DNA from: a virus
Virus record (IMG/VR): IMGVR_UViG_3300043773_001180
Location: 1-53,067 of that record
Length of the DNA stretch: 53,067 bases
Direction: 5' to 3' (one strand)
The notes below the pieces were generated by a model. That model was not told the DNA's origin. It worked only from the letters and a program-made list of their open reading frames with translations, and searched no databases. Both the position numbers and the translations under genes were made by a program. Numbering within the stretch: the first letter of the stretch is position 1; each line of letters begins with the position of its first letter. Positions 37,161 through 53,044 of the stretch are shown here, in pieces.

Positions 37161-37568
37161 TTAACCACGAGATTTAGTAGTACGTTTAGGTTTGATAGTT
37201 GCAGGTTGTTTCTTAGTAGTTCTTGGGTAGTTATCAATAGGATTTGCCGTATTGGCCCTCGGTGTTCTAACTTTAGGGGTTCTCGATTTAGTTTCAACGG
37301 GTTTAGATGTGGATATTTCCGCAGTCTCGTATGTAAATGCCCCACCACCACGCCAATTATCGTTTGGATTTTCTTCTCCAATATAATGTTGTTTAAGTGC
37401 AGTAATCACGGCGTCCTTATCGGAAATAGTTTCACTAAGAGTTTGTATCTGGCGTCTGTTGTAATCGGAAATAGTTTCACTAAGAGTTTGTATCTGGCGT
37501 CTGTTGTAATACCAAAATCCAAGTCCAACTAAGAAAACAACGGTGAATAGTATAAGTAAATTAATCAT
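37161..37568 (-). CDS. Membrane-anchored protein with internal 15-residue duplication
   Basis: A 135-residue protein with one N-terminal membrane segment (LLILFTVVFLVGLGFWYY). Two identical 15-residue copies of the sequence YNRRQIQTLSETISD follow, then a Lys/Arg/Thr/Pro-rich basic tail. The topology (short outer end, basic inner tail) suggests a cytoplasmic nucleic-acid- or protein-binding tail. No family is recognised. It starts eight bases after the preceding gene's stop. Confidence 0.72.
   Translation of the reverse strand: MINLLILFTVVFLVGLGFWYYNRRQIQTLSETISDYNRRQIQTLSETISDKDAVITALKQHYIGEENPNDNWRGGGAFTYETAEISTSKPVETKSRTPKVRTPRANTANPIDNYPRTTKKQPATIKPKRTTKSRG
37421..37510. repeat. Perfect 45-bp tandem duplication
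   Basis: Two identical 45-bp units (37421-37465 and 37466-37510) lie inside the membrane-protein gene and keep the frame. Identity at every base implies a very recent event, or an assembly artefact. Confidence 0.95.
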
Positions 37569-42811: not shown

Positions 42812-42875
42812 GTAAGTGTTTGGGGTGTAAAGACTTACAAAAAACCCCGTAAGTCATTGATTTATATGAACTTAC
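42812..42875. promoter_or_regulatory. GTAAGTC/GACTTAC array, locus A
   Basis: Four 7-mers alternate in orientation: GTAAGTG (42812), GACTTAC (42832), GTAAGTC (42849), AACTTAC (42869). They form two GTAAGTN-N13-NACTTAC dyads. The second dyad is embedded in the terminator stem. The same words and spacing recur at 46315-46380 and 52956-52982. Confidence 0.55.
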
Positions 42876-42883
42876 GGGGGTTT
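42837..42883 (-). terminator. Terminator after the 42911 gene
   Basis: On the minus strand, AAACCCC(C)GTAAGT pairs with ACTTACGGGGTTT around a 15-base loop and runs into TTTTTTG. It follows the stop codon of the 135-residue gene by 27 bp. Confidence 0.8.
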
Positions 42884-42910
42884 ATCACATTTATACCAAC
42901 TACCAACTAC

Positions 42911-43318
42911 TTACATACCCATAAGGACATCTGGACGAACAATCATATCAATGTTTTCACCACCATCGTGAACCAATGCGTTCTGTTCATCCCAAGAAAT
43001 TATCCCATAACCATCCTGACATCCGTATCGTTGATAATATCCCTCATATTCCTCGAATGATTCGTGTGGATTAAATTGACTATCAAAAAACGGAACGTCA
43101 CCTGTTTCTCTCAATAGACTCTCTTCAAGAGAATTTATCTCTGACAAATAATTGGATTGTATTTCTTCCGGTTGATTGGAAATAATATCATACATTTCCA
43201 TACGAGTAGAAATTAAGTTAGTGTACTTGTCTTGTATTTGTTCTAACGAGTTACACATAACTACGTTTCTCCATTCATCCGAATAGGTTTCCTTTAATTT
43301 CTTAAAATTATTGTTCAT
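42911..43318 (-). CDS. Unknown acidic protein
   Basis: A 135-residue acidic, Glu/Asn-rich protein (helical ~1-80, then FFDSQFNPHESFEEYEGYYQ and ISWDEQNALVHDGG). The upstream gene overlaps its start by 11 bases, and a terminator follows. No family recognised; last gene of the operon led by the VWA protein gene. Confidence 0.65.
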   Translation of the reverse strand: MNNNFKKLKETYSDEWRNVVMCNSLEQIQDKYTNLISTRMEMYDIISNQPEEIQSNYLSEINSLEESLLRETGDVPFFDSQFNPHESFEEYEGYYQRYGCQDGYGIISWDEQNALVHDGGENIDMIVRPDVLMGM

Positions 43319-43514
43319 TGATATAGTCCACGATTTTCGATTCTGAAACTGTTTTTACTTCAAACGGCTCGGTTGACTTTGCAAGATACTTGTGAATCTT
43401 GACTTCCGCGTCTGTTACCGATACCGCGTTTACCATGTATGTTCTTGTTTGATTTTTGATTTTTCCTTTTTCATTTTCAATTTCAAACTGAACTTTTGCT
43501 ATGTAGAAAGACAT
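43308..43514 (-). CDS. DUF4494-like small protein
   Basis: A 68-residue protein: FYIAKVQFEIENEKGKIKNQ, YMVNAVSVTDAEVKIHKYL, then a short beta end. The central YxVxAVSVTDAE motif is what I recall as diagnostic for DUF4494, common in Bacteroidota and their phages. Function unknown. Shorter than typical members. Closely packed with its neighbours. Confidence 0.72.
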   Translation of the reverse strand: MSFYIAKVQFEIENEKGKIKNQTRTYMVNAVSVTDAEVKIHKYLAKSTEPFEVKTVSESKIVDYINEQ

Positions 43515-43516
43515 AA

Positions 43517-43765
43517 TTACTCCTTGTTATTATTACGAATGTGTATGTTAGTTAATTGTTTACTATTGAGTTGTATTTTTCCTGTTAGTGATTTTATGTT
43601 GTAGTAACCTTTCTCGGTTCCTACTGAATCATTTTTCACACCGATAATTGTTTCTCCATTCTCTTGTAGAATGTATGTTGGTATAAAGTGTATGGGTATC
43701 TCGTTGTATTCGTCTGTGTATTTTGCAAATACTTTTTTACCTATTGGTATTTCTTTGATATTCAT
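43517..43765 (-). CDS. Unknown small protein
   Basis: An 82-residue soluble protein with alternating strands (KVFAKYTDEYNEIPIHFIPT, then ETIIGVKNDS), probably a small beta barrel. Starts two bases after the previous gene's stop codon region and ends three bases before the DUF4494-like start. No family recognised. Confidence 0.62.
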   Translation of the reverse strand: MNIKEIPIGKKVFAKYTDEYNEIPIHFIPTYILQENGETIIGVKNDSVGTEKGYYNIKSLTGKIQLNSKQLTNIHIRNNNKE

Positions 43766-43766
43766 T

Positions 43767-44042
43767 TTATCTTACAAAGGGTTTTACAAAAACATTGTAG
43801 CCGAAAAACATAACAGGAAAGAGTAGTAAGGTGTATAGAAATAAATTACGGAAAACTAATTTATTACCTTCCAATTCTCGTATTCGGTTATACTTTGATA
43901 GTGAATTTATAAACTCATTACGAGATATATCTTTTCCAAATTTAGAATATACGCTTGGGTCTGATAAAAACACCATAGAAACCCCTTCACGTGAAGGGGT
44001 TTTCGACCAATTAAATGCCTGTGGTTTTGATTTCTTTTTCAT
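43767..44042 (-). CDS. Small tail-anchored membrane protein
   Basis: A 91-residue protein with a charged N-terminal ~65 residues and one C-terminal membrane segment (FLYTLLLFPVMFFGYNVFV). Such tail-anchored topology places the soluble part in the cytoplasm. The gene begins 22 bp after the VWA gene's stop. No family recognised. Confidence 0.66.
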   Translation of the reverse strand: MKKKSKPQAFNWSKTPSREGVSMVFLSDPSVYSKFGKDISRNEFINSLSKYNRIRELEGNKLVFRNLFLYTLLLFPVMFFGYNVFVKPFVR

Positions 44043-44064
44043 AGTAGTAATTCGTTGGTTAAAT

Positions 44065-46203
44065 TTATGCGGATAGCAATTTAGTATTGATAGATTTCGC
44101 GATACTTGTTATCTCGTTGGATGATGAAATACGAACGGCATTATCACCATAACATTCTTTCACCTCTGTCCAATCACGACCACCACTCCAACCACTTTGA
44201 ATAAAGTATGTTAGAAACTTTATACCATTACGTTGCATCTTTTTCATCTGTTGTTTAGAATGTTTCTGAGCAGCAGAACCGTTGTACAAAAACGTAGTAG
44301 AGTTTCTTGCAGAATACAACATATATGGCTGTCCATCACAAAGATTTATAAAATAAGCATCATTGTTACGTGATTGTGAAATTATCTCACTCATTATACC
44401 ATCAAAACACAATCCTTCTGGAGTTAGTCCGGTGCAATCTAATCTTGGGAATATATCTAAAATATCTCGAATACTATTTTTCTTTGAATCAAAGATATAC
44501 ATCAAATAAGGAATTTGTGTACTTGCCCCAAACCGATTACGTCGTGATGCATTTGAAGAATCAGAAAAGGTACTACGAACAGAAACTTGAATGTGTACAT
44601 TCGTTAACATTTTAGATACGGTTGCCATCATCGCTGCAAACTTCAATGATTCTTCCCACTTTGAACCTTGCATAGAACCCGATTGGTCAACCGATATGTG
44701 AATGTATGCGGGTTTATACGATGATATATTTATCTTTGAAAATACATCAAAGTTATCAAAACCAATTTCGTGTAACAATCGGTTATCCAATTTACCGCTG
44801 TCTAAACGTGTTGACTTTGTTACACGTTCCTCATTACGAACCTGAAGTTTCTTTGCGAGAATTTTTCCGTTTTTAACACCTTCCGATATAAGATTATATG
44901 CAAATGTATAACCCCAGCCGTTGGAATCTCTTGTTACACCATAAGGAAGTCCGGCACCACTATCCATAAAGATTTTGTTAACATTTCTTACAATGTAAAG
45001 TGGAACACCACTAGCATTATCGGAAGAAAACTCAGAGTTCTGTCCAACAATCTTTTTGTCCAAATCAATAGACGCAAATCCGGAGATTAACAAATTATCG
45101 TTTTTAGTTACAGACTTCTTTTTCAAAGTACCATTTGTAACTTCTAATTGTTTTTCATGTAATTTGTAAATGGTTTTTACCATAGAATCTGAAAGATTTT
45201 CCATCTGGTTAGTCTCGTTGGTATCTTCTGAATCCATGTCATTTTGAGATTCGTTGGTATCTTCTGAATCCATGTCATTTTGAGATTCGTTGGTATCTTC
45301 TGAATCCATGTCATTTTGAGACTTCTCATCGTTATCATTTGTTTCCGACGAATTATCTGTACCATTACTCGTATTGTTGGTAGTGGAAGGTTTTTCGTTT
45401 TCCAAATAGTGACGTATTGTACTAAAAATATCAAAGGATAGGTTTAGACGTTTATGGGTTTCATCCAAACGTGTGATATTTTGAAGGTCTATAAGTTTGA
45501 AGATTTCTTCTAACTTAGGTAGTGCCTTTAAGTTACGTTTTGGGTTACGGATATTTACAATGTGGTAAATGTAATTATCCCAATTAGGTACGGAGTATTG
45601 TAATGACCACATACCTTTAACGAGTTTATCACTACCAAAATATTTTTGGTACAACGCCGCATAATACCCACGATAACCAGGAGCTGCCTTGTACGTCATT
45701 GCATCAATATACAAATCTTCAATTACGTTAAAAATAGTTTTAACGAAGTATTGCTCTCTATAATCAAGAGCATCTATGAAATCACGTGAAGTCTTAAAAT
45801 CTGTATAAAGAATGTGTGATGATTCGTGTAAGGCAAGACCAACGGCGGTATCAAATTCTTTTTCCTGAATGTTCGCGGAAAGTGTTATAGTCTTACCGTC
45901 TGTGTAAGATTCACCCGTTGTGTGATACTTTACGGCTATATCATTTCGTCCTGTTAAGATACGAACAAAGTTTGAAATGGCACGTTGGTATTGAGCCAGT
46001 TGAAGATAGTCAAACTTCTTTTCCGTTTCTACGGATTTATAGTCATTGAAGAATGACTGTTTGCGGTCAAAGATACTATCCTTCAACCAATAGTTTGAAG
46101 ATTGGTATGAAGATTCACGTTTCGTCTGCCAGATACTTGAACGATTGTAACCAATCGTGCTTGACTTTTTATCTGAAAGAAACGAGTAGTTTGGCTTAGC
46201 CAT
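44065..46203 (-). CDS. Zincin-like and VWA-domain protein (CobT-like)
   Basis: A 712-residue protein with two recognisable parts. Residues ~124-128 are HESSH within GLALHESSHILYTDF, an HExxH zinc-metallopeptidase motif. After an acidic, Asn/Ser-rich linker comes a VWA domain with the metal-ion-dependent adhesion motif DQSGS near 504 (IHISVDQSGSMQGSKW), then later LDCTGLTPEG with the conserved Thr. Large phages often carry such proteins, sometimes with a MoxR-type AAA ATPase; none is seen nearby. The linker holds three copies of a 12-residue acidic repeat. Role unknown; a chelatase-like or chaperone-like assembly function is possible. It has its own host-type promoter. Confidence 0.85.
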   Translation of the reverse strand: MAKPNYSFLSDKKSSTIGYNRSSIWQTKRESSYQSSNYWLKDSIFDRKQSFFNDYKSVETEKKFDYLQLAQYQRAISNFVRILTGRNDIAVKYHTTGESYTDGKTITLSANIQEKEFDTAVGLALHESSHILYTDFKTSRDFIDALDYREQYFVKTIFNVIEDLYIDAMTYKAAPGYRGYYAALYQKYFGSDKLVKGMWSLQYSVPNWDNYIYHIVNIRNPKRNLKALPKLEEIFKLIDLQNITRLDETHKRLNLSFDIFSTIRHYLENEKPSTTNNTSNGTDNSSETNDNDEKSQNDMDSEDTNESQNDMDSEDTNESQNDMDSEDTNETNQMENLSDSMVKTIYKLHEKQLEVTNGTLKKKSVTKNDNLLISGFASIDLDKKIVGQNSEFSSDNASGVPLYIVRNVNKIFMDSGAGLPYGVTRDSNGWGYTFAYNLISEGVKNGKILAKKLQVRNEERVTKSTRLDSGKLDNRLLHEIGFDNFDVFSKINISSYKPAYIHISVDQSGSMQGSKWEESLKFAAMMATVSKMLTNVHIQVSVRSTFSDSSNASRRNRFGASTQIPYLMYIFDSKKNSIRDILDIFPRLDCTGLTPEGLCFDGIMSEIISQSRNNDAYFINLCDGQPYMLYSARNSTTFLYNGSAAQKHSKQQMKKMQRNGIKFLTYFIQSGWSGGRDWTEVKECYGDNAVRISSSNEITSIAKSINTKLLSA
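45216..45322. repeat. Three 36-bp tandem repeats in VWA gene linker
   Basis: Three nearly identical 36-bp units encode SQNDMDSEDTNE on the minus strand. They stay in frame and lie in the acidic linker, so length changes would be tolerated. Confidence 0.93.
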
Positions 46204-46237
46204 AGGTATAACCTTATATGATGATAAAATGTGAATA

Positions 46238-46269
46238 CAAAGATAAGTATTTTTTTGTTACCAACCAAA
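46238..46269 (-). promoter_or_regulatory. Bacteroidota-type promoter for VWA gene operon
   Basis: TTTG (46269-46266), 20 bp, TATCTTTG (46245-46238) in sense direction, 35 bp upstream of the ATG at 46203. Confidence 0.8.
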
Positions 46270-46309
46270 TAAATTTTTCAATGTGGAAAACTTTTTATGT
46301 GGTTGGGAT

Positions 46310-46381
46310 ATAAGGACTTACGTGTGTTTAGTGTGTAAGTCCTTATTTTATTAGACTTACGTTATAAATCGTTGTAAGTCT
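46310..46381. promoter_or_regulatory. Tandem hairpins / GTAAGTC array, locus B
   Basis: ATAAGGACTTAC (46310-46321) pairs with GTAAGTCCTTAT (46335-46346) in a perfect 12-bp stem. AGACTTAC (46353-46360) pairs with GTAAGTCT (46374-46381) in an 8-bp stem. The 7-mers begin at 46315, 46335, 46354 and 46374, a ~20-bp period. The two inner copies could also pair with each other, excluding both hairpins. It lies between the 46409 stop and the VWA promoter. Confidence 0.6.
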
Positions 46382-46408
46382 TTTGTTGCCAATAGGTTAT
46401 GATATATC

Positions 46409-46888
46409 CTATCCAAAGTAGATTTCTATTTTTGCCTCATTTTCATCGGTTACGATGGTATCGTACTCCCAGAGAATGTTATGGTGAAACTTGGAAATGT
46501 CCGCAATATGTTCTTTCATTTCTCCGTGGCTTCCATCGTCGTAATGTGTATCGAAGGATGAAAATATACTCTTGAAAAATTCCAATGTTTCATCCGCATT
46601 TTTCGATGCCGAATCATTCACTTCCATATATTCGTTCACCTTTTCTTTCAAGAGAGAATCATCCGTGAGAAAATACATACATAAGTTCATTGCATTTTCT
46701 ATCGTCTCTCGATTAAATTCCAAAGTAGAGCCGTTGCCGGAAACACCACCATCCGCAGCGGATGCACCCACCAACGTGTTGTAAAACAATGCTCTTCGTA
46801 GTTTGTTGAATGCACTGATTCGTAAATACGAAACTTCTTTAGGTTCTTCAGTTTTTGTTCTGATGTATGCAGATATATCGTGACCCAT
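46409..46888 (-). CDS. Unknown protein
   Basis: A 159-residue acidic protein with AAGGA before its ATG. MGHDISAYIR opens a compact domain; FNKLRRALFYNTLVGASAAD and ISKFHHNILWEYDTIV are notable stretches. No catalytic signature is apparent, and the family is not recognised. It is preceded by a Cys-rich AT-hook gene and followed by the hairpin array. Confidence 0.66.
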   Translation of the reverse strand: MGHDISAYIRTKTEEPKEVSYLRISAFNKLRRALFYNTLVGASAADGGVSGNGSTLEFNRETIENAMNLCMYFLTDDSLLKEKVNEYMEVNDSASKNADETLEFFKSIFSSFDTHYDDGSHGEMKEHIADISKFHHNILWEYDTIVTDENEAKIEIYFG

Positions 46889-46907
46889 AGGTATATTATT
46901 CCTTATA

Positions 46908-47225
46908 TTATCGTTTTACAGATACAACTTTTTTAACTTTGTTTTTACTACCGGCAGGACGACCTCTACGTTTCTTCTCACCATCTACCGAAGAAACGGT
47001 GGACTTTTTTACAACAGGGGCAGGCATCATCGTTGCAACACAGGAAGGACAAACGTATCTAACTATTCCATTTTGGTGTGGTATATTCGATTCACACTTG
47101 TTTCCGCCCCAATATGGGGTTTTGTTTTTGGTATTGTTGATACAATATATTTTACCACGTTTTACCTTCGATTGTTCGATAGGTAGTTTTTTTGTGGTTT
47201 TTGTGGGTTTACGTCCACGTTTCAT
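46908..47225 (-). CDS. AT-hook and zinc-finger-like DNA-binding protein
   Basis: A 105-residue basic protein. MKRGRKPTKTTKK and KKRRGRPAGSKNK are AT-hook-like (RGR-P), able to bind the minor groove of AT-rich DNA. The middle carries IYCINNTKN, NKCESNIP and YVCPSCVATMMPAP, a four-cysteine zinc-finger pattern. The CxxC-x-A-x-M-x-P piece is shared with the 33325 protein. It has its own promoter at 47271. I infer a phage DNA-binding or transcription protein; the fold is not certain. Confidence 0.75.
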   Translation of the reverse strand: MKRGRKPTKTTKKLPIEQSKVKRGKIYCINNTKNKTPYWGGNKCESNIPHQNGIVRYVCPSCVATMMPAPVVKKSTVSSVDGEKKRRGRPAGSKNKVKKVVSVKR

Positions 47226-47270
47226 AAGTTTTACCTTATATGTGAGAAATACACTACTTCATTTATTCTA

Positions 47271-47301
47271 CAAATTTAAGGGGTTATTACTAACATCACA
47301 A
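47271..47301 (-). promoter_or_regulatory. Bacteroidota-type promoter for AT-hook gene, inside a dyad
   Basis: TTG (47301-47299), 20 bp, TAAATTTG (47278-47271) in sense direction, ~45 bp before the ATG. An 11-bp perfect inverted repeat AGGGGTTATTA / TAATAACCCCT (47279-47289 and 47327-47337) brackets the -33 region. Confidence 0.7.
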
Positions 47302-47337
47302 TGAATTTTTCATTAATTTTTGTTAATAATAACCCCT
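47279..47337. promoter_or_regulatory. Long dyad overlapping AT-hook gene promoter
   Basis: The arms AGGGGTTATTA and TAATAACCCCT enclose a 37-base loop that itself holds ATGAATTTTTCAT. No T-tract follows in the leftward direction, so simple termination is unlikely. It could bind a regulator or form an attenuating hairpin in read-through RNA from the 47363 gene. Confidence 0.45.
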
Positions 47338-47362
47338 AAATTTCTTCAAATTTGACCTATCT

Positions 47363-47629
47363 TCAATCTTGCATATCCTCACCAAAGTTATATTGGTCTA
47401 TTTTATAGTGGTTTGGAAAGAACGAATCATCGTTGAATGCCGATTCATCAAACAATCTCTTCTCCATAATCATTTCTGTTATTTGAAGAAACGTGTTAAT
47501 CAACTGGTCTTCGTCTAATTCCATCAATTCCTGTTCACTACATTCCTCTACTTCCATACCGGAACTAGAATCCAATTCGTTGCACATTTCTATAATCGTC
47601 TTAACTATTTTGTTTTGTAGGTTTTCCAT
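47363..47629 (-). CDS. Unknown acidic protein
   Basis: An 88-residue acidic protein. The ATG at 47629, with AAGGA upstream, is preferred over an ATG at 47671, which would make a 71-base overlap with its neighbour. The sequence is helical and acidic (LMELDEDQLINTFLQITEMI), then Asp/Phe-rich. No family recognised. Confidence 0.62.
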   Translation of the reverse strand: MENLQNKIVKTIIEMCNELDSSSGMEVEECSEQELMELDEDQLINTFLQITEMIMEKRLFDESAFNDDSFFPNHYKIDQYNFGEDMQD

Positions 47630-47825
47630 CTGCATTTCCTTTTGAATGTTTAACTGATAAAATATCTTCAATATCTTGTCTTACTAATTCTCTTTCCACT
47701 CCATCTTCTATTACAACCATACCAAGAAATTTTTGGTAACGTAATATGGTTTCTATACCCATCCCACTTTCCCACATATTTACGAGGGAATCTTCGTTTA
47801 ACCTATGTACGATTAGTTTATTCAT
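47601..47825 (-). CDS. Unknown small protein
   Basis: A 74-residue soluble protein (NEDSLVNMWESGMGIETILR, RQDIEDILSVKHSKGN). It overlaps the exonuclease stop by eight bases at its start and the next gene by 29 bases at its end. Possibly a small helical regulator; no family recognised. Confidence 0.6.
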   Translation of the reverse strand: MNKLIVHRLNEDSLVNMWESGMGIETILRYQKFLGMVVIEDGVERELVRQDIEDILSVKHSKGNADGKPTKQNS

Positions 47826-48621
47826 TGGTAGATTCTACATCGAATATATCATCCATTCCTTTTGCCGCCCATTCATCCAACGTTTTCTTGTAAGATGATT
47901 CCATCTTATCTTCAGTCATTTCCCATGCAACACGAAGAGAAGAATCAACATCTCTCATGCAATATTCGTTGATACTTTCGGTATCATGGTCATCCCAAAA
48001 ACGATAACAAACCTGACGACCATCCATTTCTCCCATCTTTGGATTCTCTACACCCATAAGGTCACAGATTGTACCAAACCCACTCATACCATTCACACCA
48101 ACGTTCCAATAGTCATATAGGTCAATGTGTGGTACTTCCCACGGCTTCTTACCAACGGGTATAAGAGTACGATGTGGGTAAATCTTGTTCACCAACATTC
48201 GTTTGTAAACAAAGGGGATGTCGAAGTATTTTACCCTATATCCACCCAACGGGGCATCAATATTACCAAACAAGTTTCCTAGCACTCTGTTAAACTTTAA
48301 GAGTATTTCCTTGTCTGCATACTTCTTATCCATTCCATCATATTCATCCCAATCTTTAAATCCAAAGGTTTCTCCTTCAAACTTGTTTTCAGAGTAAATC
48401 TTCCAAGCGATTGATACTACTTGTCCGTGTTCGGGGTACAACATACCATACTCTTGATATGCAAATTCAGGAGTAACGTTTGGGTATTTTAAACTTGCAC
48501 GGTAAATAAAATCCTTTGCATTAAAAGGTTCCTTCTCTAAATATTCCTCGAAGGTTTTATATCTGGTTGTTGTTTCAATATCGAAGAATAATGTGCTAAA
48601 CAATTTAGATTTCTGTATCAT
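47818..48621 (-). CDS. 3'-5' exonuclease, PolB/DnaQ-like
   Basis: A 267-residue stand-alone exonuclease resembling the proofreading domain of family B polymerases. Exo I is FFDIETT (Asp14, Glu16), Exo II lies in GYRVKYFDIPFVYKRML, and Exo III is YCMRDVDSSLRVA near 220, giving the DEDDy set of four acidic residues with a Tyr. The protein is close in length to the PolB-related exonuclease family. It may serve DNA repair or degradation; a polymerase is not in this window. Followed by small coupled genes. Confidence 0.9.
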   Translation of the reverse strand: MIQKSKLFSTLFFDIETTTRYKTFEEYLEKEPFNAKDFIYRASLKYPNVTPEFAYQEYGMLYPEHGQVVSIAWKIYSENKFEGETFGFKDWDEYDGMDKKYADKEILLKFNRVLGNLFGNIDAPLGGYRVKYFDIPFVYKRMLVNKIYPHRTLIPVGKKPWEVPHIDLYDYWNVGVNGMSGFGTICDLMGVENPKMGEMDGRQVCYRFWDDHDTESINEYCMRDVDSSLRVAWEMTEDKMESSYKKTLDEWAAKGMDDIFDVESTNE

Positions 48622-48868
48622 GTTTTTTCTTTCTGTTTATGTGATAGATGATAAAGTACGTTCCAATAAGAATAATCATAAAACTAAGTGATAGTTTTAT
48701 ATCCGATAATAGTGTTAAAAAGAAAAGAATAGATAGTAACACAATCCATGTGGAGTTTGCAGTAACAAACCAACCAAGTCCTACCAAAAAAGAAATAATA
48801 CCTACAAAACTTATTAAACCTTTTTTATCTTCTTTTGATAACGACTTCCATTCATTTATGAGTTTCAT
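48605..48868 (-). CDS. Small multi-pass membrane protein
   Basis: An 87-residue protein with about three membrane segments (LISFVGIISFLVGLGWFV; WIVLLSILFFLTLL; FMIILIGTYFIIYHI) and a basic C-terminus (NRKKKHDTEI). It overlaps the exonuclease start by 17 bases. A holin is conceivable from size and topology, but nothing else supports it. Confidence 0.66.
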   Translation of the reverse strand: MKLINEWKSLSKEDKKGLISFVGIISFLVGLGWFVTANSTWIVLLSILFFLTLLSDIKLSLSFMIILIGTYFIIYHINRKKKHDTEI

Positions 48869-48871
48869 AGA

Positions 48872-49144
48872 TTATCCTTTATTACTATCTATAATTTTCT
48901 GTGAGTCTGTTTCTATCTTTAAAGTTACCCATGTTCCAATTACTGCACCAATAACTGAAAATAGAATATTCCAATGATTCTGAACAAAGTAAATTGTGTT
49001 AATAGCACCGAATGCCATAATAAGACCCGCGAGTAACGAAGAGGCAAGGGCATTCCCACTTGCTGTTCGTCTAACGTATAGTGCCCAAATCACGTCCAAT
49101 ATAAACGATGATGAAAAGCAAATGAGTGAAGAAAATAAATCCAT
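48872..49144 (-). CDS. Small multi-pass membrane protein
   Basis: A 90-residue membrane protein with three segments (SSLICFSSSFILDVIWALYV; ALASSLLAGLIMAFGAINTI; ILFSVIGAVIGTWVTL). The VRRTASGNALASS loop and the GAxIGTW motif are distinctive, and I recall similar short phage proteins, but no functional family is named. Just three bases separate it from the next gene. Confidence 0.68.
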   Translation of the reverse strand: MDLFSSLICFSSSFILDVIWALYVRRTASGNALASSLLAGLIMAFGAINTIYFVQNHWNILFSVIGAVIGTWVTLKIETDSQKIIDSNKG

Positions 49145-49155
49145 GTTTTATCCTT

Positions 49156-49980
49156 TTAGTTTGTTTTTGTAATCATATCCATATAGTATTTGTAAGTTTG
49201 GTGTTGTTGGAATACTTGTTTAATTTCATTTAACGCTATCTCTGCCTCTCCTTCTGTTTGGAAACAATTACCAAGATTGTATCGGTCACGAAACATAGCA
49301 CAATTTTGAATAGTGGTTGACTGACGGATTCTACCGATTTCGTCGATAAACCAATAAGATTTACCTTCATTTGGTTTCCAACGGGGTGGTACATACGGGG
49401 TAGGAACGTTAATAACAATCGGTCTCCATACGTCTCCGTCTTTAAATGCATCAAACCAATTTATCAGATGAACTTCATTATCTTCTCCAACTACCCATAC
49501 ATCACCATCTTGAAATCGTTGAGAGTTATATCCATCGAATCCACACGGCAGTCTATCGGTTATCCAACCATCGTTATCATCCATAGGGATGAACGGTTTA
49601 ACCGACCCCGACCACGAGTCCTTTCTATTGTCGTTTGTGTTTTTCTGTCCTGTTTCCCGTCTATATGTCACACCATCATCAGATTCCGTAATTGCCCCTG
49701 CCATAAAAAATCCACCACAGATTCTAAGCCACGGTTCATCGTCCTCTACACCTTCTTCAATCCAAAAATGAAATCCACCAGAATGATAACTTCCCTTAAA
49801 TACCGTTTCTTGTAACGCTTCTTCCAACATAACCCTAAACTCGGATTCCGTAACCGAATCACCCGGTGTGTGCCACCATTTCCAACGAACCGCTTTCATT
49901 GCTGTTACACATCGTTCGACTTCAAAGTATTCTTTTATAGACTGGACTTGTTCTCTTAAAACTTCACTTCTACTTAACAT
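49156..49980 (-). CDS. Two-domain protein ending in an ITDRLP-type module
   Basis: A 274-residue protein from the ATG at 49980, which has GGAGGAG nine bases upstream; a TTG at 49998 is less likely. The N-terminal ~145 residues (MKAVRWKWWHTPG, FHFWIEEGVEDDEPWL) are a separate domain. The C-terminal half (GWITDRLPCGFDGY, RWKPNEGKSYWFIDEIGRIR, YNLGNCFQTEGEAEIA) is the same module as the two short proteins upstream. The W-x-T-DRLP plus GNCFxTxxEAE module is widespread in phage and prophage proteins of unknown function. An internal anti-host or recognition role is speculation. Confidence 0.75.
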   Translation of the reverse strand: MLSRSEVLREQVQSIKEYFEVERCVTAMKAVRWKWWHTPGDSVTESEFRVMLEEALQETVFKGSYHSGGFHFWIEEGVEDDEPWLRICGGFFMAGAITESDDGVTYRRETGQKNTNDNRKDSWSGSVKPFIPMDDNDGWITDRLPCGFDGYNSQRFQDGDVWVVGEDNEVHLINWFDAFKDGDVWRPIVINVPTPYVPPRWKPNEGKSYWFIDEIGRIRQSTTIQNCAMFRDRYNLGNCFQTEGEAEIALNEIKQVFQQHQTYKYYMDMITKTN

Positions 49981-49984
49981 AGAT

Positions 49985-50095
49985 TTACTCTCCTCCAAAT
50001 AAATTTATAAATGCAACCAAGAATTTGTACGCAACCCATATTGTTCCTACTAAAACAGACAACATGAGAAGAATTGAAAATAGTAGTGAAATCAT
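49985..50095 (-). CDS. Very small membrane protein (36 aa)
   Basis: The frame runs from ATG 50095 to TAA 49985: one hydrophobic segment (ISLLFSILLMLSVLVGTIWV) and a short tail. AAAGGA lies six to ten bases before the ATG. Its final codons supply the GGAGGAG ribosome site for the downstream gene, which supports it being part of the operon. Function unknown. Confidence 0.6.
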   Translation of the reverse strand: MISLLFSILLMLSVLVGTIWVAYKFLVAFINLFGGE

Positions 50096-50123
50096 TTTTG
50101 TTTTCCTTTTGTATTACTGATAC

Positions 50124-50177
50124 TTAATAATTAGACTCTTTAGGGTTCGGCAGCCTGTCGGTTATCCACTCACTCAT
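50124..50177 (-). pseudogene. Truncated third copy of the ITDRLP gene
   Basis: The ATG at 50177 opens MSEWITDRLPNPKESNY and stops at 50124. The first ten residues match the two intact copies upstream, and the ATG sits in the same AATGAGTGA overlap as in the intact pair. The sequence then departs, so this is the 5' stub of a lost or never-completed copy. It might still be translated. Confidence 0.75.
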
Positions 50178-50553
50178 TGTTCAGCTCCTTATGATAGTTT
50201 AGTAATGTCTCACGCACACGTCGCGCGGCTTCTTGGGCTTGGGCTTGGGTTTTGAAACAGTTGCCGAAGTCGTATCGTCTGAGGAAACGATATTCGTTAT
50301 CCGTAGCAATTAAACGATGCTCAAAGCCGGAGTCGGTTACATAATGGTATAGTTGCTCACTCTCAGGCTTCCACCGCTGCGGCTCTGTCTTGACGTAGGG
50401 TTTTGGCATTGCTATGTGCGTCCAAGGTTGTCCGTGCAAAACTGTACTATAATGTTGGTTTTTAAGTCCATCACATACATAGTAAACCCAAACCGTTTGA
50501 TTTACATCTCCGTCTTCTTTAGTCGGCAGTCTATCAGTTATCCACTCACTCAT
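50170..50553 (-). CDS. ITDRLP-type protein, copy 2
   Basis: A 127-residue protein (MSEWITDRLPTKEDG, RWKPESEQLYHYVTDSG, NCFKTQAQAQEAARRVRETL, LLNYHKELNNE). It is a paralog of the gene upstream, and both ends are nearly identical between them. The start ATG overlaps the preceding stop. Codons here are visibly richer in G and C than those of surrounding phage genes, which suggests later acquisition. Function unknown. Confidence 0.78.
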   Translation of the reverse strand: MSEWITDRLPTKEDGDVNQTVWVYYVCDGLKNQHYSTVLHGQPWTHIAMPKPYVKTEPQRWKPESEQLYHYVTDSGFEHRLIATDNEYRFLRRYDFGNCFKTQAQAQEAARRVRETLLNYHKELNNE

Positions 50554-50923
50554 TGTTCAGCTCCTTATGATAGTTAAGTAAAAGTTCACGCACTCGGCTC
50601 GCAGCTTCCTGTGCCTGAGCCTCTGTTTGAAAGCAGTTGCCAATTGCATACCTATCATGATCACCACTAGTGCCTAGCCATGCATTGCTGAACACGCAAT
50701 GCGATACGACTGAGAAGTATATCTCGTTGACATTCGGCTTCCACCGCTGCGGCTCGGGCTTGACGTAGGACGCGGGGATTTTTATTGGCATCCAAGGCAT
50801 ACCAAGTTTAATTTCATTACGTCTTCTTAAATTTGGCAAGCCGACTATTTCCTGATACCACACAAGACCTAGAAACCCATCTTCGTATTTCGGCAGCCTG
50901 TCGGTTATCCATTCTGTATTCAT
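50546..50923 (-). CDS. ITDRLP-type protein, copy 1
   Basis: A 125-residue protein starting at ATG 50923 with AAGGA upstream (a longer frame to 50962 runs into the attC-like element). It shares EWITDRLP, RWKPNVNEIYFSVVS, NCFQTEAQAQEAASRVRELL and the identical end NYHKELNNE with copy 2, while the middle diverges. Also relatively GC-rich. Tandem duplication with diversification of the centre is inferred. Confidence 0.78.
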   Translation of the reverse strand: MNTEWITDRLPKYEDGFLGLVWYQEIVGLPNLRRRNEIKLGMPWMPIKIPASYVKPEPQRWKPNVNEIYFSVVSHCVFSNAWLGTSGDHDRYAIGNCFQTEAQAQEAASRVRELLLNYHKELNNE

Positions 50924-50956
50924 GTTGTTAGTCCTTATTCTAAATTTAACGGCACA

Positions 50957-51046
50957 TAACAAGGGTTTTGCGTAATAGCCCTATCAAGTGTCGTGGTTAA
51001 TTTTAAGTTTCTACTAAGGGCTACTACGCAAAGCCCTGATACGTTA
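50957..51046. repeat. attC-like imperfect inverted repeat
   Basis: A 25-29 bp arm (AGGGTTTTGCGTAATAGCCC core) at 50957-50981 pairs with a second arm at 51018-51046 (AGGGCTTTGCGTAGTAGCCC in reverse complement) around a 36-base loop, flanked by TAAC. The two cores differ at two positions that remain G-T pairable in RNA or single-stranded DNA. The overall shape resembles integron attC sites and related Bacteroidota intergenic repeats; the strict RYYYAAC/GTTRRRY core is not matched exactly. Confidence 0.6.
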
Positions 51047-51505
51047 TAGCCAATAGCTACCATTCACGGTCAACACCGACTTGTATGAAGTTAACACTTT
51101 CCGAATAATAACCACTTGATTCTCCGTACCAACGAATATCTACATAGCCTTTTATCGTTGCTAATTTGTAAAATGTCCAAGTACAAGAACCCCAATCATT
51201 TGCTTCTTTGGTTTTTTTAATGTCTTCTTCGGAAGTAGGTTCGTAGTTTGAAACTTCTTCGGCTGTTAATATTGGTGTTCCGATTAAGTCATTCAAATCT
51301 CCGTTAATATCTTCAATTAAAACACTTTCACAGCAATCTTGTCCGTGATACATTTTATATTGTGTTCCATCGTCAACGATAAAAATTAATTCATCGCCAT
51401 TGTTTTTAATTTCGGTAAGTGTTTTACCCACTAAGTCTTTAAATTCTGCCATTGTATTTGTTTTTAAATTAAGTTTCTACTAATCAATCCGCTACTGGCT
51501 ATAAC
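51003..51505. mobile_element. Cassette-like insertion carrying one gene
   Basis: A 15-bp direct repeat, TTAAGTTTCTACTAA, occurs at 51003-51017 and 51469-51483 (466 bp apart). Just inside and outside lie inverted copies of a 15-mer: GTTATAGCCAATAGC at 51043-51057 and its near-complement GCTACTGGCTATAAC at 51491-51505. The single gene between them (51057-51452) starts and stops close to these ends. This is how a gene cassette or small mobile unit would look. No recombinase is visible. Confidence 0.5.
51057..51452 (-). CDS. DUF7448-like protein in cassette-like unit
   Basis: A 131-residue acidic protein: [58 protein letters not shown], then [20 protein letters not shown] and YYSESVNF. The G-D-D-G-T-Q-Y-x-M-Y-H-x-Q-D-C-C-E stretch is what I recall for DUF7448 proteins of phages and Bacteroidota; function is unknown. 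It has its own host-type promoter and a long leader, and is bounded by repeats, so it was probably acquired as a unit. Confidence 0.72.
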
Positions 51506-51568
51506 AGCAACCTTTCCATCACGAATTACTTTTTCCATAGTTTTGTTGTGTTATTGATTAACGATGTA

Positions 51569-51600
51569 CAAATATAAGTAAAAAAATCCAAACCACCAAA
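51569..51600 (-). promoter_or_regulatory. Bacteroidota-type promoter for cassette gene
   Basis: TTTG (51600-51597), 20 bp, TATATTTG (51576-51569) in sense direction. It lies outside the repeat-bounded unit, so the inserted gene is driven by a promoter next to the insertion site. The leader is ~110 bp and includes the inverted 15-mer. Confidence 0.78.
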
Positions 51601-51700
51601 TTTATTTTTTAAACCCTTACACGGTAAGGAGTTAGATAAAGTTTTCCATAGCAAAAAAATTGACCTCGATAAAAAAACCGGTTTAACGCCCTATTATTAA

Positions 51701-51825
51701 CCCCCTCCCCCTAGGGGGTTTACGGGTAATTATACCCCCCGATCTACCCCCCCTAGACCCCCCTATTTTAGGGGTGCGCAGACCATATACCCTAGATCTA
51801 CCCTATTTAGACCCCATACCCCCCC
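51701..51825 (-). other. G-tract region with G-quadruplex potential
   Basis: On the minus strand there are nine runs of three to seven G in 125 bases (51825-51819, 51815-51812, 51803-51801, 51792-51790, 51763-51758, 51753-51747, 51740-51735, 51711-51707, 51705-51701), including three 6-7 G runs separated by four and six bases. GATCTA repeats lie between runs. CCCCCTAGGGGG forms a palindrome at its lower end. The first runs overlap the metallopeptidase stop codon. The rest of the 350-base gene-free stretch (51453-51802) holds the cassette leader and promoter. Confidence 0.7.
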
Positions 51826-52324
51826 TATTAAACCTACCCATTCTTCGGGGAAACATGGTTTCCAGTACCGCATGGGTACATTGTACGTCATATACGGATG
51901 CTATATGATTGGCTTCTACCTCATACGGATTGTTTTTATAGCCCATGCTATTGTTCCAACGGTAATACCAGTTACCTTTACGTGGTTGTAGGTAGTGCGT
52001 GTATTCATGTATGATAGAATTAGCAAGGTTGTATATTGTTTTGTGGCCTTGTATTCTTACCCGGATAATGTTTTCATCTGTTAGGTATTCCGCCCAAACT
52101 CCTTCACTTTGTAGTTCTGTGCAGTTCCAAGTCCATTCTATTTGAGGTAAGTTTCTTCTTGGCTTACCCAACGTTTCCTTACACCATTGTAAGGTTAGGG
52201 ATAAGAAGGTATCTATTTCGGCTTCGGTTAAGTTACCGCCCAAATGATACATAGGTATAGTCTTGCTACGCTTGGGTGTATGAGTTGGTAGTCTTAGTTT
52301 CTTTAGACGTTTGGTTTTAAGCAT
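51803..52324 (-). CDS. Zinc metallopeptidase-like protein (SprT/zincin type)
   Basis: A 173-residue protein. NSIIHEYTHYLQPR (HEYTH near 106-110) is an HExxH zinc site, followed by NPYEVEANHIA, whose Glu is a likely third ligand. This H-E-x-x-H ... E pattern suits small zincins such as SprT- or IrrE-like peptidases. The N-terminus is basic and the C-terminus Gly/Arg-rich. Its ATG overlaps the upstream stop, with a ribosome site shared in sequence with its neighbour. It may cleave a host or phage regulator; the target is unknown. Confidence 0.78.
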   Translation of the reverse strand: MLKTKRLKKLRLPTHTPKRSKTIPMYHLGGNLTEAEIDTFLSLTLQWCKETLGKPRRNLPQIEWTWNCTELQSEGVWAEYLTDENIIRVRIQGHKTIYNLANSIIHEYTHYLQPRKGNWYYRWNNSMGYKNNPYEVEANHIASVYDVQCTHAVLETMFPRRMGRFNRGGMGSK

Positions 52325-52517
52325 TACCGGCCCTTTCTTGTCTTATGGGTAATTGTAGTCCACCACCAACAGAGTTCCCCACGGAGTCCAACACGGAGTT
52401 CCACACGGAATACTCCACGGAGATCAACACGGAGTTCCACACGGAGTTCCGCACGGAGTTATACATGGGGATCTCCACAGATTCCAAAATCTTATGTCTA
52501 ACATTCTCTAAGTTCAT
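52317..52517 (-). CDS. Tetrapeptide-repeat protein (xNSV repeats)
   Basis: A 66-residue protein. Residues ~19-50 are eight four-residue units: YNSV RNSV WNSV LISV EYSV then WNSV LDSV GNSV. The 12-bp DNA period (cacggagttcca-like) is clear at 52372-52470. I recall short xSV repeats in Bacteroidota proteins and phages, but no function. A regular four-residue period could form a beta solenoid or a stacked strand. It starts directly after the stop of the gene upstream (TAAATG). Confidence 0.72.
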   Translation of the reverse strand: MNLENVRHKILESVEIPMYNSVRNSVWNSVLISVEYSVWNSVLDSVGNSVGGGLQLPIRQERAGNA

Positions 52518-52847
52518 TTACCGGCCCTTTCTAAGGTTAGACTTCCATAGATATTGGAATACGTTAGCCCATCCTATTCCATTCGGAAAGTCATATTTCC
52601 AAAAGGTTTTTGTACCGAAATGTTTTGAGGTAACTGTTTCAGGTTTACCACCCAACATACCACGACCAACTGAATCAAACCACATAAGGAATCGTCTATA
52701 CTCTTGTAGTATATTGATTCCATAACAGAATGATTGAACATACTTCCTAGCCTCTGGATAGGTCTTTAGGAATTGAATGACATCTTGTTCAGATACCACG
52801 TGAACTATGTATTGTTCCGAGGCGGGCGGGAGTTTACGTCTTCTCAT
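52518..52847 (-). CDS. Unknown protein, first gene of right-end operon
   Basis: A 109-residue basic protein (SEQDVIQFLKTYPEARKYVQ; FWKYDFPNGIGWANVFQYLW). No catalytic motif is seen and no family recognised. It has a host-type promoter upstream, and its stop is joined to the repeat-protein start. Expected to be early, by promoter class only. Confidence 0.66.
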   Translation of the reverse strand: MRRRKLPPASEQYIVHVVSEQDVIQFLKTYPEARKYVQSFCYGINILQEYRRFLMWFDSVGRGMLGGKPETVTSKHFGTKTFWKYDFPNGIGWANVFQYLWKSNLRKGR

Positions 52848-52884
52848 GTGTGTGTAATAAGTGAATAGTCTTTTTTACCGAATA

Positions 52885-52915
52885 CAAATCTACGAAATGT
52901 TTGGGACATTACCAA
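52885..52915 (-). promoter_or_regulatory. Bacteroidota-type promoter, leftward
   Basis: TTG (52915-52913), 20 bp, TAGATTTG (52892-52885) in sense direction, 38 bp before the 52847 ATG. Confidence 0.75.
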
Positions 52916-52955
52916 TTAATTTTTGTTCATATACCAAATTTTTTTTCTTTTTGAG

Positions 52956-52982
52956 GTAAGTCATTGAGTTTATTGGACTTAG
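52956..52982. promoter_or_regulatory. GTAAGTC-N13-GACTTAG dyad, locus C
   Basis: GTAAGTC (52956) and GACTTAG (52976) have the same 20-bp spacing as in the arrays at loci A and B. The intervening bases (ATTGAGTTTATTG) also resemble locus A (ATTGATTTATATG). It sits midway between the leftward promoter at 52885 and the rightward one at 53014, a natural place for a shared regulator. Confidence 0.55.
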
Positions 52983-53013
52983 GAAAAATGAACAAAGATT
53001 AATCAAAAATTGT

Positions 53014-53044
53014 TTTGGTATTCATAATCTCTTCCGTATCTTTG
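53014..53044 (+). promoter_or_regulatory. Bacteroidota-type promoter, rightward
   Basis: TTTG (53014-53017), 19 bp, TATCTTTG (53037-53044) on the plus strand. It is the only plus-strand signal recognised and implies a divergent transcription unit beyond the right edge. No start codon is visible before the end. Confidence 0.7.

Follow-up and report, generated by a model that had tools for sequence, protein, structure and literature searches.

What the heptamer GTAAGTC and its complement GACTTAC do at three intergenic loci of a viral contig is the question addressed here. The contig (IMG/VR record IMGVR_UViG_3300043773_001180; all 53,067 nucleotides of this 53-kb stretch were analysed and are referred to as the window) carries T4-type baseplate genes and Bacteroidota-type promoters. 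An earlier note had listed ten heptamer copies at loci A, B and C and had suggested binding sites for a dimeric regulator, or a replication-related element. The clusters are explained here, with a probability of roughly 0.5, as arrays of a 27-bp dyad that would act as protein-binding, probably DNA-bending, sites upstream of promoters.

Seven of the ten listed copies were exact (42832, 46315 and 46354 on the − strand; 42849, 46335, 46374 and 52956 on the + strand), while three differed by one base: GTAAGTG at 42812, AACTTAC at 42869 and GACTTAG at 52976. The alternating orientation and the 17–20 bp steps noted earlier were found at all three loci, with steps of 20, 17 and 20 bp at A, 20, 19 and 20 bp at B, and 20 bp at C. 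The window contained 11 exact heptamers against 4.5 expected, and 2 of 100 shuffles reached 11; the four exact copies outside the loci were single and lay within long open reading frames. With statistics this weak, the heptamer on its own was dropped as evidence. The repeat itself is real, although it had been mis-sized: what repeats is an imperfect dyad of 27 bp, GTAAGTC-N13-GACTTAC (in fuller form GTAAGTCSTTGA-NNN-TCAASGACTTAC), in which the heptamer is the half-site. Two dyads were present at locus A, three at B and one at C, all of them intergenic.

With a profile derived from other phages, four dyads and no more stood out clearly in the window (starting at 42812, 42849, 46295 and 52956); all four were intergenic, and 40 Markov shuffles of the window gave none. 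The dyads B2 and B3 were assigned by eye within the B array.

42812–42838: dyad A1, locus A, GTAAGTGTTTGGGGTGTAAAGACTTAC; profile scan; syntenic in five relatives
42849–42875: dyad A2, locus A, GTAAGTCATTGATTTATATGAACTTAC; profile scan
46295–46321: dyad B1, degenerate and promoter-proximal, GTAAGTCCTTATATCCCAACCACATAA on the − strand; profile scan; in fixed register to the DnaA-box-like 9-mer described below
46335–46360: dyad B2, locus B, 26 bp, GTAAGTCCTTATTTTATTAGACTTAC; from the sequence
46374–46400: dyad B3, locus B, degenerate, GTAAGTCTTTTGTTGCCAATAGGTTAT; by eye, below the profile threshold
52956–52982: dyad of locus C, GTAAGTCATTGAGTTTATTGGACTTAG; between two divergent promoters

The dyad was by no means confined to the window. 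The strict pattern AAGTCSTTGANNNTCAASGACTT matched 80 stretches of viral contigs, for which chance expectation was, by our own estimate, well under one, and the related contigs examined held 643 elements per 1.06 Mb compared with 1 after shuffling. One phage contig (G002) carried 43 copies within 11 kb, mainly as pairs with exact 42-bp steps, and copies within a single phage such as this one were all oriented alike. The phage contigs of 100–148 kb that were searched held 10–26 copies each (at most three mismatches), located, among the matches listed, largely within one segment of about 10 kb. Between 1 and 8 copies were present in each of six bacterial genomes of 2.7–3.6 Mb that had been picked for holding one dyad. 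The dyad also adjoined nic in the origins of transfer (oriT) of the IncW plasmids R388, pIE321 and R7K and of the Bordetella plasmid BPP5P1, and in Falsochrobactrum it stood next to a similar sequence. The dyads of R388 and R7K differed at positions 8 and 20; as these changes are symmetric, the dyad symmetry is maintained.

Both dyads of locus A recur at the corresponding position in five syntenic relatives. Equal frequency in coding DNA, or absence from relatives, had been named in the earlier note as findings that would speak against the element; the dyads proved to be intergenic and present in relatives. Judged by this distribution, many phages and some plasmid oriTs share the dyad as a conserved DNA element located mostly between genes; by the same comparison it is a recurrent, putatively regulatory element common to unrelated phages and some plasmids.

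Several other searches yielded nothing of use. Matches to GACTTAC-N12-14-GTAAGTC in viral contigs were, among those listed, mostly unrelated single sites, and many matches to AGGACTTAC...GTAAGTCCT were ordinary terminators, often at tRNA genes. BLAST matches in Septimatrevirus, Azobacteroides phage ProJPt-Bp1 and a microvirus were intergenic but near chance (E 0.1–6) and were not used; those in mycobacteriophage HNH genes were coding and at chance level.

The behaviour of the two arms was evaluated in 503 unique dyads. At most stem positions, Watson–Crick pairs were about as frequent as arms varying independently would give; positions 1, 5 and 8 showed a small excess of paired changes. Compensatory pairing, as a sign of structured RNA or an intrinsic terminator, was not found in this set, and no Rfam matches were obtained at the dyads. 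In the cultured Stenotrophomonas phage DLP6, copies of the half-site TCAACGACTTA followed one another in the same orientation at 25-bp spacing ahead of sigma70-like promoters and, in the part of the genome inspected, always lay between annotated genes. Because the arms vary almost independently and occur in DLP6 as direct repeats, the GTAAGTC words are read as half-sites of a 27-bp DNA palindrome, and RNA hairpins are rejected.

For DLP6, a 'phage promoter' motif predicted with PHIRE has been published, with 25 copies, 22 of which occur in twos before gene clusters (Peters et al. 2017, PMC5349666). BLAST of a tandem half-site query on DLP6 returned 25 places, with the half-site intergenic, mostly paired and located before sigma70-like promoters. 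Since the copy number and the paired intergenic setting agree, the PHIRE motif is very probably the half-site TCAACGACTTA. The DLP6 elements are direct repeats at 25 bp in place of 27-bp dyads, and the published motif was treated as a promoter of one phage, without a link to other phages, oriT, the DnaA box or a binder. Searching the literature with the sequence turned up just two relevant items, DLP6 and an ICEclc primer, and no published description of the dyad was found besides the DLP6 promoter prediction.

A sigma70 scan of the window itself showed no promoter excess, and promoters there were subsequently called by the host-type element TAnnTTTG. As the earlier note had stated, such promoters adjoined loci B and C; locus A had none.

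46282–46290, − strand: DnaA-box-like 9-mer, TTTTCCACA; separated from B1 by AAAG, in the same register in relatives
46265–46269, − strand: −33 element TTTGG of the predicted promoter of the 712-aa gene; from the sequence
46238–46245, − strand: −7 element TATCTTTG (TAnnTTTG), 36 bp past the box
44065–46203, − strand: 712-aa gene, transcribed from the predicted locus B promoter
52885–52892, − strand: −7 element TAGATTTG of the predicted leftward promoter of locus C
53037–53044, + strand: −7 element TATCTTTG of the predicted rightward promoter of locus C; the gene downstream falls past the end of the contig

In the Bacteroidota-type group of phages, an outward TAnnTTTG together with a −33 TTG was found at 13 of 28 array flanks, compared with 1 inward and 0.18 expected. 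In the large phage group, which includes G001, G002, G006 and G007, an outward sigma70-like promoter was present at 41 of 132 arrays, against 9 inward and 17.5 in shuffles. Many Bacteroidota-type arrays shared the order dyad, AAAG, TTWTCCACA, 3 or 13 bp, TTTGG and TAnnTTTG. All 11 composite copies having a −7 element placed it 27/28 or 36/37 bp from the box (36 bp at locus B); these copies are only partly independent, as several of the phages are related. The 4-bp gap between box and dyad was identical in nine of nine neighbouring pairs, and the 9-mer at 46282–46290 matches TTWTCCACA. The two distance classes lie 9–10 bp apart, as helical phasing of a bound protein relative to RNA polymerase would give.

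By these counts, the arrays of Bacteroidota-type phages, locus A excepted, are located upstream of predicted host-type promoters reading away from them, and the dyad there is part of a defined, putative composite promoter. Dyad symmetry, near-independent arms, the DLP6 direct repeats and the fixed promoter geometry together bear out the earlier idea of sites for a dimeric regulator, as to kind. In its proposal of a dimeric site near promoters that note appears to have been right, and to have erred only in scale.

From these features we infer that the dyad is probably the landing site of a conserved DNA-binding protein, possibly host IHF or a relative. The bound protein would very likely regulate small early-type genes, by phased contact or by bending. 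At slightly less than even odds, this protein would come from the host and belong to the DNABII class, being IHF or, in Bacteroidota, a relative of HU. Somewhat more tentatively, host DnaA might bind the box in Bacteroidota phages and couple early transcription or the start of replication to the host. A still wider reading, in which a single 27-bp dyad, converged upon or exchanged by unrelated dsDNA phages and conjugative plasmids, serves as a universal control site by which mobile elements exploit a conserved host protein for early genes, with DnaA as a second sensor in Bacteroidota phages that would wire their early transcription to the initiator of host chromosome replication, is considered rather unlikely.

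The DNABII class was proposed on two grounds: the IHF consensus WATCAANNNNTTR (PMC8942017) falls within the half-site, (W)ATCAASGACTTA, and the dyad resembles a symmetrised IHF site. At least one exact WATCAANNNNTTR was present in 291 of 503 unique dyads. Where the dyad centre was unconstrained, it was TA in 54 of 87 cases compared with 38.8 expected (maximum 50 in 2,000 shuffles), and a TA at the centre makes one arm read TATCAA. In the R388 and R7K oriTs, the sole match to the IHF consensus (at most one mismatch) fell inside the dyad, and host IHF binds the R388 oriT specifically (PMC3264647). Known IHF sites and the dyad have their kinds of setting in common: upstream of promoters, in oriT and beside a DnaA box. 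An IHF site spans 35 bp, with kinks 9 bp apart (PMC8421141). The shortest step between neighbouring dyads, 34 bp, may be likened to this length. If the kink lies at TCA|A, the mirrored steps of a dyad would likewise lie 9 bp apart. A PF00216 (HU/IHF) protein was encoded in none of the 27 array-bearing records, four of which are complete named records, and a phage-encoded HU/IHF was rejected as the binder.

A number of observations weigh against promoter-upstream arrays bound by IHF or a relative. Exact consensus matches were lacking at two of the three window loci: dyad A2 had one (AATCAATGACTTA on the − strand), locus C matched with one mismatch, and locus B had no match even within one mismatch. 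IHF sites are ordinarily asymmetric, have a free N4 and often an A-tract, whereas the dyad is symmetric and its N4 is conserved. The GTC/GAC positions corresponding to N4 carried 0.86–1.60 bits, so that an unconstrained N4 was not found, and SGAC was strongly conserved although IHF leaves N4 unspecified. In Bacteroidota-type phages, GTAAGTC was conserved better than TCAA, and the copies depart there from the TCAA of IHF. The DLP6 repeats, at 25 bp, are too close for IHF dimers side by side. A single-copy query of 5,426 E. coli genomes gave zero dyads, which is odd for a favoured IHF site. No recognisable promoter was found at locus A in the window or in the five syntenic relatives, and no DnaA box in the arrays of the non-Bacteroidota phages examined. 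Finally, most contigs are fragments, so that a binder encoded by all of these phages might be located on the missing parts.

The close rival to a host DNABII binder is a dedicated dimeric transcription factor, phage-encoded or of an uncharacterised host family, with the dyad as its operator or activator site; this is possible, though held with less than even confidence. It would account for GTAAGTC, the N4 region of IHF, being the best conserved block, for the many copies per phage in one orientation, as in G002, for sites helically phased upstream of −35/−33, and for E. coli chromosomes without trace of the dyad. Analogues exist in the dispersed operators of SPbeta and mycobacteriophage L5. 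The SPBRE of Bacillus phage SPbeta is a 15-bp motif read by MrpR, a repressor with a tyrosine-recombinase fold (PMC10516654). Like the dyad, it recurs as a single sequence across many promoter regions between the genes of a phage; it is confined to one phage, whereas the dyad is common to unrelated phages and plasmids. The stoperators of cluster A mycobacteriophages are 13-bp asymmetric sites of the phage repressor, likewise present in many copies in short intergenic gaps and oriented with transcription, with a different sequence. The dyad is, however, common to phages of probably very different hosts, and R388-type oriTs carry it where a phage factor is absent. All-against-all clustering with BLAST and phmmer gave no regulator family common to the DLP6, large phage and Bacteroidota groups, a negative weakened by the mostly fragmentary contigs.

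Two further explanations concern replication and hairpins. IHF and DnaA act together at oriC and datA. The fixed register of dyad, AAAG and TTWTCCACA, the AT-rich flank at locus B and the dyad in plasmid oriT would suit an oriC-like or DnaA-regulating site, and to this extent the replication-related element suggested earlier retains some footing in the 9-mer at its fixed 4-bp gap. The module occurs, however, several times per genome (as in G003), each time tied to a promoter, and window loci A and C, like the non-Bacteroidota arrays, lack the box; as it sits at several promoters per genome, transcription fits better than a single origin, and a replication element is very unlikely. A role as a hairpin of RNA or DNA (an intrinsic terminator, RNase site or cruciform, or a shuffling cassette of the PeSL kind known from T4-type phages) is likewise very unlikely. 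Palindromes fold well, the cassettes lie among small genes, and dyad A2 with flanking CCCC/GGGG and TTTTTT, which provide the − strand with a GC clamp and a T-run, can be folded as a terminator hairpin after the − strand gene at 42911–43318. Some phages (L215, L235 and others) also use AAGTCCTTGATTTTCAAGGACTT plus T-runs as a tRNA terminator. On the other hand, the five relatives lack the locus A T-run, so that this fold exists in the window only; locus C folded no better than shuffles; arm changes were mostly uncompensated; and DLP6 arranges the half-site as direct repeats. PeSL cassettes, reportedly described by Arbiol et al. in 2010, are said to combine a sigma70 promoter with stem-loops among small variable genes, the stem-loop being a terminator, whereas dyad and terminator are distinct here, the dyad behaving as paired half-sites. 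A stem-loop terminator of this kind near an early promoter was not found: G002 dyads are often adjoined by a separate GC-rich terminator, and only locus A resembles one.

Many of the first-acting phage and plasmid genes in a new host lack a known function. If dyad arrays are indeed promoter-upstream binding sites, a marker of early promoters across unrelated elements would help to delimit early regulons in metagenomic phages, and in Bacteroidota phages the module would supply a usable promoter architecture. Hijacking of a conserved host DNA-bending protein and of DnaA to start infection would thereby become testable. Bacteroides thetaiotaomicron phage BT638P6 is a culturable test system; two more dyad-like sites were observed in its only other long non-coding gap (L295:21311-22271).

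Several minor observations were made at the arrays. At locus C, a 16-bp inverted repeat (52915–52930 and 52988–53003; ATTAATTTTTGTTCAT / ATGAACAAAGATTAAT) is symmetric about the dyad, between the divergent promoters, and a similar ATTAATTTTTGTTCAT adjoins a dyad in L104 (contig G010). Sigma54-like sites, TTGGCACG-N4-TTGCW, stand on the flanks of many arrays of G001, G006 and G007 (L180, L183, L184, L276); they often form convergent or divergent pairs and, in G006 and G007, are accompanied by GGGGCCCC spacers. In G002, a match to transfer-messenger RNA (L182:8522-8585) has a tRNA gene and a pair of dyads as neighbours. Terminator-like hairpins of AAGTCCTTGATTTTCAAGGACTT plus a T-run occur in the related phages L215, L224, L235, L237, L254, L258, L273, L280 and L281, several of them adjoining a tRNA gene; the core sequence is the same and the role apparently different.

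Elsewhere in the window, the protein encoded at 46908–47225 is small and basic, has a clear AT-hook (RGRPAGSKNK) and gave no Pfam or PHROGs matches; no link between it and the dyads emerged. At 1–1900, a collagen-like repeat gene on the − strand, with a GC content far above the rest, runs off the contig end. Tandem duplications were present inside coding DNA at 45215–45325 (a 71-bp self-match in the 712-aa gene) and at 37419–37510 (47 bp, in another gene).

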